IMG/VR virus record: IMGVR_UViG_3300035682_000146
Span: 1-28,534 of that record
Length of the DNA stretch: 28,534 nucleotides
Direction: 5' to 3' (one strand)
Origin: a virus
The position numbers and the translations under genes were made by a program. The notes beneath the pieces were generated by a model that was given only the letters and a program-made list of their open reading frames with translations, was not told the DNA's origin and did not search any database. Shown here one piece after another: positions 2,671 to 28,534 of this stretch. Within the stretch, counting starts at the first letter, position 1, and each line of letters opens with the position of its first letter.

Positions 2671-3870
2671 ATGAACATCAACGAAATTAAACCTAACCCA
2701 AGCAACCCAAGAATCATTAAGGATGAGAAGTTTAAGAAGCTGGTTAAGTCAATACAGGACTTCCCTCAAATGCTTGAACTTAGACCTATTGTTATAGATG
2801 AAAACAATGTAGTATTAGGTGGCAATATGCGACTAAAGGCTTGTATTGAAGCTGGTTTAAAAGATGTACCAGTAAAACAAGCAAAAGACTTAACCGAAGA
2901 ACAAAAGAAAGAGTTTATTGTAAAAGATAACGTAGGATACGGAGAATGGGATTGGGATGATCTTGCAAACAATTGGGATGAGCAATTACTTACAGAATGG
3001 GGTTTAGATATACCAAACTTTGATGCAACTGTATTAGAGGCAGAAGAAGATGACTTTGCCGTACCAGATGGCGGAATAGAAACGGACATAGTATTAGGCG
3101 ACTTATTTGAGATAGGCGAACACAGATTACTTTGTGGCGATAGTACAGATAGCGACCAAGTGGCAAAGCTAATGAACGGACAAAAGGCTGATATGTCTTT
3201 TACAAGTCCACCTTATAATGCAGGTAAAAGTGAGGCTTTGAGTGGTAACACACATACAACAGATAATAAATACAACGAATACAACGATAATCAAACTAAA
3301 GATAATTATTTAGATTTATTAATAGGATTTACAAATAACGCAATATTAAATAGCGAATATCTTATTTGCAATATTCAAAGCTTAGCCGGTAATAAAATAG
3401 CTTTAATAGAATATTTGAATGAATATAAAGACAATTTTATAGATGTTGCAATATGGGATAAAGGACACGGAGCGCCAGCAATGGCTGAAAATGTAATGAC
3501 TTCTGCTTGGGAATATATGTTCTTTATATCTTCAAAAGATAAAGCTTCAAGAGCAATACCTAATGCAAATTTTAGGGGAACAGTTCCAAATATATACAGA
3601 GGCAAGCCAAATAGAAATAATGAATTTTCTCACGTTCACGCTGCAACATTCCCAATAGATTTACCAGAATGGGCATTGCAATTTACAAAAGAAGGTCATA
3701 TTGTTTTAGATCAATTTTGTGGAACAGGAACAACAATGGTTGCTTCACATCAAATGAAACGCAAATGTTATGGAATGGAGTTAGACCCAAAATACTGCCA
3801 AGTAATTGTAGATAGGATGAAAAAACTTGAACCATCATTGGTTATCAAAAAGAACGGAGTAACTTTGTAA
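2671..3870 (+). CDS. ParB/Srx-like domain fused to DNA methyltransferase (beta class)
   Basis: A 399-residue fusion. Residues about 1-110 match the ParB/sulfiredoxin-like domain often found before phage methylases (PNPSNPR near the start, GGNMRLKACIEAGLKDVPV at about 50-68). The rest is an S-adenosylmethionine-dependent amino-methyltransferase: catalytic motif IV is TSPPYN (residues 178-183) and the SAM-binding motif FCGTGTT is at residues 349-355. Motif IV before motif I defines the beta class. A serine in the SPPY form is commonest in N4-cytosine enzymes, but N6-adenine cannot be excluded. No cognate restriction enzyme is nearby, so it is an orphan, probably guarding phage DNA from host restriction. 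Adjacency to terminase suggests modification before packaging. The ParB-like part may nick DNA or bind nucleotide. Confidence 0.88.
   Translation: MNINEIKPNPSNPRIIKDEKFKKLVKSIQDFPQMLELRPIVIDENNVVLGGNMRLKACIEAGLKDVPVKQAKDLTEEQKKEFIVKDNVGYGEWDWDDLANNWDEQLLTEWGLDIPNFDATVLEAEEDDFAVPDGGIETDIVLGDLFEIGEHRLLCGDSTDSDQVAKLMNGQKADMSFTSPPYNAGKSEALSGNTHTTDNKYNEYNDNQTKDNYLDLLIGFTNNAILNSEYLICNIQSLAGNKIALIEYLNEYKDNFIDVAIWDKGHGAPAMAENVMTSAWEYMFFISSKDKASRAIPNANFRGTVPNIYRGKPNRNNEFSHVHAATFPIDLPEWALQFTKEGHIVLDQFCGTGTTMVASHQMKRKCYGMELDPKYCQVIVDRMKKLEPSLVIKKNGVTL
3838..3867 (+). promoter_or_regulatory. Promoter before the terminase/head operon
   Basis: TTG at 3838-3840 and TAACTTTG at 3860-3867 are 19 bases apart, a near-ideal Bacteroidota promoter. 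The start of the small terminase gene is 27 bases downstream of the -7 box. The element lies in the last codons of the methyltransferase, so it probably separates early from late transcription. Confidence 0.6.
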
Positions 3871-3893: not shown

Positions 3894-4241
3894 ATGGCAA
3901 ACGAGCATAATTTAATACCAGCACAAAAGGGAGAAGTAAGAAACCCAAATGGAAGGGGTAAAGGTGTGCCTAATAGCAAGACAAGGCTTTTACGTTTATT
4001 AGAGTTGGTTACTAAGGTACGCAACCCAGTAACAGGAGAAGATGAGGAGTTTACAATAGCAGAGCAATTAGATATGCAGATCATAGCTAAAGCGAGAAAG
4101 GGCGATTTAAAGGCTTACGAAATACTATTGGATAGATTAGAGGGCAGACCAAAACAAACAACCGACATTACTGCTGATATTAAGGGTAGTGTTCAAATAA
4201 CTATTGAACCAGATGCAGATTGTCAACCAATTAAAGATTAA
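3894..4241 (+). CDS. terS: Terminase small subunit-like protein (DUF5681-like)
   Basis: A 115-residue protein. The N-terminal part has the G-x-x-RNPNGRGKG-x-PN motif typical of the DUF5681 family, which occurs just before large terminase genes, followed by helices (LLRLLELVTKV, AEQLDMQIIAKARKGDLKAYEILLDRLEGRPKQ). Small subunits recognise the packaging site on DNA and load the large subunit. The identification rests on the motif and on position; sequence divergence in this class is large. The end overlaps the large-subunit gene by 29 bases, and a good promoter lies just upstream. Confidence 0.75.
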   Translation: MANEHNLIPAQKGEVRNPNGRGKGVPNSKTRLLRLLELVTKVRNPVTGEDEEFTIAEQLDMQIIAKARKGDLKAYEILLDRLEGRPKQTTDITADIKGSVQITIEPDADCQPIKD

Positions 4242-27622: not shown

Positions 27623-27817
27623 ATGAGCCAAAACCAACAAATTGCAAACTACCTAAATAAAGGTAGAAAGTTAACCCCTATTGATGCTTTAAACAAGTTC
27701 GGATGCTTTAGATTAGCAGCACGAATAGCAGACCTTAGGAATGATGGAATGAATATTAAAACTACCATTATTAAGCTAAAAAATAAGAAACAAGTAGCGC
27801 AATATTCGGTTAATTGA
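27623..27817 (+). CDS. Small helix-turn-helix protein (HTH_39-like)
   Basis: 64 residues: QQIANYLNKGRKLTPIDALN, KFGCFRLAARIADLRNDGMN, I-K-T. This is a familiar winged-helix pattern (LTP-x-x-AL-x-x-FG-x-x-RLA-RI-x-DLR-x-x-G) of short proteins common in phages. It probably binds DNA. It sits immediately before the HNH leader, and the promoter-like box at 27819 starts one base after its stop. A role as autoregulator or as regulator of the downstream HNH/replication genes is possible. Confidence 0.75.
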   Translation: MSQNQQIANYLNKGRKLTPIDALNKFGCFRLAARIADLRNDGMNIKTTIIKLKNKKQVAQYSVN

Positions 27818-27818
27818 T

Positions 27819-27826
27819 TATATTTG
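27819..27826 (+). promoter_or_regulatory. Promoter-like -7 box before the structured leader
   Basis: TATATTTG directly follows the HTH stop. The expected start of transcription would be near 27831. A -33 TTG is not present at 17-23 bases, so activation by a factor may be needed. Confidence 0.4.
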
Positions 27827-27830
27827 CAAT

Positions 27831-27919
27831 AGAATGTACGAGATTCTAATCTAAAACTTTTTGCCCAAGGAGGCGTTGGTACTCGTACTACCAGCAAATC
27901 TGCGGGCTATTTTATTTTT
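27831..27919 (+). promoter_or_regulatory. Structured leader with embedded mini-ORF upstream of HNH gene
   Basis: In this 90-base gap, GCCC (27863-27866) can pair with GGGC (27904-27907). It encloses a hairpin GTTGGTA (27875-27881) with TACCAGC (27889-27895), with one G-U pair and a seven-base loop. The enclosed AAGGAGG (27867-27873) is a perfect Shine-Dalgarno sequence, rare in this genome. It is followed after two bases by TTG (27876), which opens a 15-codon frame (MVLVLPANLRAILFL if TTG is read as Met). Its TGA overlaps the HNH ATG. I cannot assign it to a known RNA family. Confidence 0.5.
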
Positions 27920-28237
27920 ATGACATACGGAGAAAAGTTAAAAGACCCAAGATGGCAAAAGAAACGTCTTGAAATTTTACAAAGAGACAACTGGACTTGC
28001 AGATATTGTGGTTCAGACAAACACACATTACACGTACATCATTTTAAATATTTCAAAGAACCTTGGGATATAGAAAATGATAAATTAATAACTTTTTGTG
28101 AAGATTGCCATTGGCTACACGAAACTATGAATTCTACTTCTTATGATAGAATTTTAGAAATTATTAAAAGGCACATTGATAATGGTAAAAGTGAAACATA
28201 TTGTAGAAAAGATTTAAAAAATGATAACAATGGCTAA
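27920..28237 (+). CDS. HNH endonuclease
   Basis: 105 residues. The pattern is DPRWQKKRLEILQRDNWTCR, YCG, then HVHHFKYFKEPWDIENDKLI and CEDCHWLHE: CxxC (residues 31-34), the HH of the HNH core near residues 45-47, N near 58, and the second CxxC near 67-70, giving a zinc-bound HNH fold. Such small nucleases occur as free-standing homing or packaging-related enzymes. Here it lies between the HTH protein and the initiator, which it overlaps by eight bases. Its expression may be controlled by the structured leader. Confidence 0.87.
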   Translation: MTYGEKLKDPRWQKKRLEILQRDNWTCRYCGSDKHTLHVHHFKYFKEPWDIENDKLITFCEDCHWLHETMNSTSYDRILEIIKRHIDNGKSETYCRKDLKNDNNG

Positions 28238-28534
28238 AAGATTTACTGATACAGAAAAATGGAAAAAGCCTTTTATTAGGTCTTTAAAAGCCCCTTACAA
28301 GCTGCTTTGGTTATATGTTTGTGATGATTGCGACCATTCTGGCATTTGGCAAGTTGATATAGAAGTTGCTCAAATAAGAATTGGAGAAAAATTAGATGAA
28401 CAAAAAGCATTAGAATATTTTGGGGATAAGATAATACCATTAGAAAATAATACTAAATGGTTTATTCCAAGTTTTATTGAGTTTCAATATCCAAGCGGTT
28501 TAAGTGAAAACAACAAAGCGCATACAGGAATAAT
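28230..28534 (+). CDS. Phage replication initiator protein, N-terminal part
   Basis: ATG 28230 overlaps the HNH gene; an in-frame ATG at 28221 would add three residues. The frame continues without a stop to the window end and then at base 3. The first 100 residues (KWKKPFIRSLKAPYKLLWLY, SGIWQVDIEVAQIRIG, KWFIPSFIEFQYPSGL) are the winged-helix-like N-terminal region seen in initiators of Bacteroidota phages, which binds origin DNA. The C-terminal part, with the repeat-encoded linker, is at 3-548. The AAGCCCCTT sequence of the origin repeats also occurs at 28288-28296. Confidence 0.82.
   Translation, partial: MAKRFTDTEKWKKPFIRSLKAPYKLLWLYVCDDCDHSGIWQVDIEVAQIRIGEKLDEQKALEYFGDKIIPLENNTKWFIPSFIEFQYPSGLSENNKAHTGI
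28408..28534. repeat. Direct terminal repeat, right copy
   Basis: Identical to bases 1-127. See the left copy; it shows that the contig closes into a circle. Confidence 0.95.

Follow-up and report, generated by a model that had tools for sequence, protein, structure and literature searches.

Introduction

RNAI and RNAII of plasmid ColE1 are antisense partners that meet through 7-nt kissing loops. The CI immunity RNA of the satellite phage P4 and the C4 RNAs of phages P1 and P7 are processed RNAs that act in trans, in a setting of phage replication-operon leaders with self-complementary segments and premature transcription termination. In T4-type phages, hairpins in the leaders of free-standing homing endonuclease genes occlude Shine-Dalgarno sites and involve no kissing helix. 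In the rep leaders of IncI-alpha, IncB and IncL/M plasmids, such as the ColIb-P9 repZ pseudoknot, a leader stem-loop pairs with a distant segment before the replication-initiator gene and so controls its expression, while in the pT181-type countertranscript attenuator, it is termination before the rep gene that sets the initiator level (both cited in PMC10724649).

The leader considered here precedes an HNH endonuclease gene in a viral record (IMG/VR record IMGVR_UViG_3300035682_000146), the entire 28,534 nt of which were analysed and are referred to as the window. It is a real RNA element, apparently not described before, that would control phage genes for replication and for homing endonucleases. 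By analogy, it would work most like the IncI-type pseudoknot rep leaders and the RNA control of P4 and ColE1, although the defining antisense feature of such systems failed where tested. As in the IncI-type leaders, a loop is paired close to where a replication gene begins, as indicated by covariation and by the replication-type genes that follow; at the same time, no conserved TAnnTTTG sequence, and hence no promoter for an antisense RNA to the first loop, was found on the opposite strand of the leaders. The phage leader further differs in having two closed loops, a 7-bp kiss, a U-tract after the second hairpin and a Bacteroidota-type promoter. To the P4 and P1/P7 systems it can be likened by plan, with cis kissing and an intrinsic-type U-tract being proposed here, and to ColE1 in that its 7-nt loops pair over their full length and come in variant types, with the difference that both loops now lie on one RNA. 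As with the T4 endonuclease leaders, structure before the start codon would keep expression low, yet the phage leader also serves genes that do not encode endonucleases. Finally, termination would set the initiator level as in pT181, but neither a countertranscript promoter nor an antiterminator hairpin was found in the phage leader.

Results

The leader and its surroundings

The features assigned to the leader and the genes behind it are as follows.

27819–27826, + strand: TAnnTTTG promoter box TATATTTG of the Bacteroidota -7 type, assigned by sequence and by spacing to the loop of hairpin 1
27830–27848, + strand: hairpin 1 (HP1), stem TAGAAT/ATTCTA, assigned by stem pairing across relatives
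27836–27842, + strand: HP1 loop GTACGAG, 7 nt, first half of the kissing helix, exact complement of 27882–27888
27849–27862, + strand: linker, AACTTTTT in the window and AACTTATT in most relatives, assigned by comparison with relatives
27863–27907, + strand: hairpin 2 (HP2), terminator-like, with symmetric internal loops, assigned by folding and covariation
27863–27866 with 27904–27907, + strand: HP2 basal stem P2a, GCCC/GGGC
within 27863–27907, + strand: HP2 stem P2b, GGA/TCT
27867–27873, + strand: AAGGAGG
27875–27881 with 27889–27895, + strand: HP2 upper stem P2c, GTTGGTA/TACCAGC, seven pairs
27876–27923, + strand: TTG-started mini-ORF, the TGA of which overlaps the HNH gene ATG at 27920
27882–27888, + strand: HP2 loop CTCGTAC, second half of the kissing helix, assigned by covariation
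27908–27919, + strand: U-tract TATTTTATTTTT adjoining HP2, assigned by T count relative to other genes
27920–28237, + strand: HNH endonuclease gene, ATG 12 nt past HP2
28221–28534, + strand: next gene, starting MAKRFTDTEKWKKPF, cut at the window end and resuming at window position 1

The window bears a direct terminal repeat of 127 bp (positions 1–127 are the same as 28408–28534), which probably makes the record a whole phage genome, circular or circularly permuted, with a length of about 28.4 kb. The TAnnTTTG promoter, the low G+C content and the spread of relatives point to a host that is probably a member of the Bacteroidota, likely Flavobacterium. The product of the HNH gene matched Pfam HNH with an E value of 0.0021, under the gathering score. 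The gene at 28221 is of the replication-module type as judged by context; a Pfam search with its product returned no match.

The initial annotation of this region had listed the promoter box, the GCCC/GGGC structure, the seven-pair hairpin, AAGGAGG and the TTG mini-ORF, all of which are present, but had overlooked HP1 and the complementarity between its loop and that of HP2. GTACGAG and CTCGTAC each occur once on the + strand of the whole window. The reported G+C enrichment was likewise borne out, with the GCCC..GGGC block containing 60% G+C, as compared to 34% for the window, a richness equalled by about 0.01% of 45-nt windows. The folding energy of the leader (z = -1.78, with 7 of 200 shuffles folding equally well) is weak evidence by itself; it is comparison with relatives that makes the structure certain. 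A simple terminator scan of the window did not call HP2, since the basal stem is short here, comprising only 4 bp with internal loops. In the main family of leaders described below, the HP2 internal loops are often symmetric (3x3, 4x4) and purine-rich, which suggests non-canonical pairs and a rod-like stem.

Distribution of the leader

A 17-mer from the element matched 39 viral contigs, mostly true relatives, in which quite different genes follow the same leader. Relatives of the HNH gene, in turn, yielded leaders with other letters and the same plan. A loose scanner for kissing loops proved too noisy, while the addition of promoter and start-codon filters reduced matches in shuffled sequence to near zero. 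In total, the main family collected comprises 61 distinct leaders from 170 locus records, the number of contigs being lower than 170 because some were retrieved more than once.

A pattern consisting of the linker and U-tract only, with the loops left unused, returned at least 120 stretches. Among the matches listed, 47 distinct leaders carried an upstream TAnnTTTG box; in all 47, the 5' part was complementary to the inside of HP2 over 6 nt or more, and in 43 of them over 7 nt or more; crossed pairs of different kiss types presented a complement of 6 in 13% of cases and of 7 in 3%. Of 14 unrelated HNH gene leaders with an HP2-like stem and U-tract, 9 had a 5' stretch complementary to the inside of that stem over at least 7 nt, where 0.63 was expected. 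Since these leaders are not homologous, the plan extends beyond the main family. Other HNH gene leaders (L336 near 911, L349 near 1500, L206, L201, L300 and L311) present a 5' complement of 10–11 nt, or an imperfect one, to the inside of the hairpin and no clear hairpin 1. The class with a long 5' strand and no hairpin 1 (L336, L349, L206 and L201) did not rise above shuffles (9 vs 9).

All matches from a pattern search of genome contigs were chance matches, as were those from phage and plasmid collections, where nothing similar was seen. Searching 395 sampled Bacteroidota genomes with HNH proteins and an RNA model revealed no leader, which is weak evidence given that no positive-control genome is known. 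An Rfam 15 scan, also suggested in the initial annotation, gave no match at gathering score for the window or 12 relatives and only chance-level matches at E values up to 10. A literature search, limited mainly with respect to subscription papers, found no description of such a leader. The leader represents a covarying RNA family unmatched in Rfam 15, with no member found in the annotated phage and plasmid collections searched, and would offer an entry point into replication-gene control without Shine-Dalgarno sites in many small phages that probably infect Flavobacterium.

Covariation of the stems and the kissing helix

In a 29-sequence alignment, 95.3% of the cells of the kissing helix, upper stem and basal stem were paired, as compared to 64.4% upon shuffling. 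The covariation score of this alignment was 0.770, as compared to 0.189 ± 0.021 for shuffled alignments, none of 500 of which scored as high, and sliding of the partners gave scores of at most 0.176. Within the kissing helix, 6 of the 7 pairs differ on both sides and none on a single side. Because MAFFT alignment A2 misplaces the 3' arm of HP1 in many rows, HP1 was counted in structure-anchored columns; across 28 distinct types, 109 of 112 cells of its stem were paired (shuffles, at most 87). For the HP2 upper stem, the count was 136 of 140 (shuffles, at most 95). The conservation and covariation on which the idea of a conserved RNA had been made to depend are thus clearly present, and it is near certain, judging from these comparisons, that the fold, including the kissing helix, is real.

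Layout of the leader and start region

The layout is equally constant. From the end of the promoter box to the HP1 loop there are 7–10 nt in 60 of the 61 distinct leaders, the presence of the box itself being in part due to selection, as the scanner required the motif. The two loops are 37–40 nt apart, the HP2 loop lies 29–33 nt from the ATG and the ATG is found 10–13 nt past the HP2 stem. HP2 has a mean energy of -18 kcal/mol, and in 60 of the 61 leaders the 9 nt after its stem include 7–8 T. Likewise, the 11 nt before the ATG contain a mean of 9.6 T in the leaders, as compared to 3.3 in 36 other window genes. An intrinsic-terminator attenuator has a stem adjoining a U-tract 5' of the gene, an arrangement seen here too. 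When HP2 was forbidden in folding, however, the cost was 9–26 kcal/mol and HP1 alone was left, with no antiterminator hairpin appearing; as such, this is not a textbook two-state attenuator.

In these bacteria, initiation is favoured by A at positions -3, -6, -12 and -13 and by low structure (PMC9976891). Of the 61 leaders, 1 has an A at -3, as compared to 25 of the 36 window genes, and 1 has an A at -12, as compared to 19 window genes. Given the reported preference, the leader start regions look better suited to termination than to efficient translation.

Discussion

A proposed cis-acting attenuator

The reading preferred here, to which a probability of roughly 0.5 is assigned, is that of a cis-acting kissing-loop leader, probably attenuating transcription while also concealing the start codon, that would govern replication genes and be used by inserted homing endonucleases. 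The leader RNA of about 85 nt would act in cis, with transcription starting at or just before HP1, as judged from promoter spacing, such that HP1 is probably the 5' end of the RNA. HP1 would fold first, with its 7-nt loop then kissing the 7-nt loop of HP2. The default state would be off or low, with most transcripts ending in the U-tract after the terminator-like HP2. In those transcripts that are read through, the structure would occupy the ribosome landing zone, where the upstream adenines preferred by Flavobacterium ribosomes are nearly absent, presumably blocking translation. The kissing helix might tune how often HP2 forms in time and thereby how frequently polymerase reads through, the direction of this effect being our suggestion. 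The replication-initiation module of these phages would be governed in this manner, while stand-alone HNH and GIY-YIG genes, having entered precisely where the start codon lies, would come under the same control. The fold with its kissing helix, the U-tract, the start-codon spacing and the exchange of downstream genes are the sequence features that support this scheme, although the U-tract could be retained for a reason other than termination. As neither an antiterminator hairpin nor an antisense promoter was detected, control would be exerted via the kiss, a protein, a modified polymerase or another RNA.

Kiss types and possible action in trans

About a dozen kiss types exist in the main family. 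When the pairing of loops was considered, own loops paired in 15 of 15 cases and crossed loops in 8 of 210, solely between variants of one type. On the same HP2 body, the kiss can be altered together with its matching partner (GTCGGAT, GTCGTAT and GTCGTTT in L381, L358 and L371, respectively), and L356 and L132, identical in HP2 body and HP1 stem, differ at 3 of the 7 kiss positions. A second leader with a different kiss, GTGAGAT, was observed within the same phage in L004 (about 3925–4025), L034, L351 and L356, before HNH-type genes where these were read.

The sequence fits a kiss in cis or in trans alike, and the loops could thus serve a trans-acting RNA for self-control or immunity. Here, the terminated leader would accumulate as a short RNA, bind nascent leaders that carry its own loop type and silence replication genes in sister phages or superinfecting ones, with loop types corresponding to incompatibility groups. 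We consider this unlikely and hold it as a minority reading, while finding it the most interesting alternative. The specificity of pairing within types, the differing kisses carried by the four loci with two leader types, the variation of kiss letters on the HP2 side in an otherwise identical HP2 and the replication modules that follow the leaders all agree with such action. Still, with a linker of about 14 nt between the hairpins, pairing in cis should win over pairing in trans, the L375 locus carries two distinct leaders of a single kiss type, contrary to strict incompatibility, and no antisense promoter was found. Moreover, the HP1 stems have changed no more slowly than the kiss, leaving faster evolution of the latter unproven. 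That the kissing loops form a recognition code, with same-type leader RNAs blocking replication of sister or superinfecting phages in trans and escape occurring when both loops change together, is unlikely; were it true, Bacteroidota phages would possess an RNA incompatibility system. The loop types constitute orthogonal parts.

Possible control of translation alone

It is also rather unlikely that control is purely translational, with HP2 and the kiss blocking or positioning the ribosome at the AUG and no termination taking place. The fixed distance of 10–13 nt from stem to AUG and start regions that lack the adenines typical of the other genes fit such control, yet the near-pure U-tract directly after the stem, seen also in the unrelated leaders, would be left unexplained.

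The linker

The linker AACTTATT directly 5' of HP2 is conserved across kiss types (e.g., L381, L371 and L229) and may touch the kissing helix or be bound by a protein. That the leader as a whole binds a protein or ligand, with the conserved internal loops and this linker as the site, is improbable. The conservation of the linker and of parts of the HP2 internal loops across kiss types speaks for such binding. A riboswitch would have a ligand-binding core of unpaired bases kept throughout the family, and in the main family the internal loops and linker are kept in part. On the other side stand the lack of an Rfam match and the fact that the unrelated leaders keep the plan alone and not the letters.

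Gene exchange at the start codon

The leader is followed by genes of the Lin1244_N/DUF4373 type, DUF1376-like and HTH_36-like genes, HNH genes (plain and of the NUMOD4 type) and GIY-YIG-like and methylase-like genes. In other phages, proteins related to the DUF4373-type protein are annotated as replication initiation proteins. Two genes were seen in both arrangements: that starting MAKRF directly behind the leader in L365 and downstream of an HNH gene in L002, and that starting MAKDPAF likewise in L357 and L012, respectively. HNH genes are thus optional inserts between the leader and a replication-type gene. Homology breaks abruptly at the ATG, as reflected in the comparison of L003 and L004, where the agreement is 94% in the upstream region, 98% in the leader and 20% in the gene. 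This sharp boundary shows in what way homing endonucleases appropriate control elements that are already in place.

A similarity break exactly at the ATG, to which many different genes are joined, might equally be expected of a DNA-level element, i.e., a recombination junction or origin for the exchange of replication genes. This is highly improbable, as the G-U pairs in the stems, the promoter spacing, the U-tract and the AUG spacing are RNA features, and second copies stand before HNH genes elsewhere in the same phage.

The Shine-Dalgarno-like motif and the mini-ORF

The initial annotation had read the region as an attenuator or a switch of translation, or else as some other conserved RNA, pointing to a buried Shine-Dalgarno sequence and a 15-codon mini-ORF. 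The conserved, strongly covarying leader RNA has held up, whereas the mechanism, in which translation of the Shine-Dalgarno-led mini-ORF switches the HNH gene, was rejected as almost certainly wrong: although the window does contain AAGGAGG and a TTG-started ORF that overlaps the ATG, neither is kept among relatives, the TTG lies just 2 nt past AAGGAGG and Bacteroidia ribosomes do not use Shine-Dalgarno sequences (PMC9976891). Specifically, AAGGAGG is present in just 12 of the 61 homologous leaders, and most relatives either lack the mini-ORF or have it in another frame or fused to the gene, such that the conserved small ORF of a leader-peptide attenuator was not found. Nor is AAGGAGG nearly absent from the genome, as had been claimed; with 4 copies in the window and 2.87 expected, its occurrence is not exceptional.

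Elsewhere in the window, two further ORFs drew attention. Positions 27623–27817, adjoining the leader upstream, encode a winged-helix protein of 64 amino acids (Pfam HTH_39) that is present in many relatives, and positions 2671–3870 comprise a single ORF in which, by motif reading, a ParB-like N-terminus is fused to a DNA methyltransferase.
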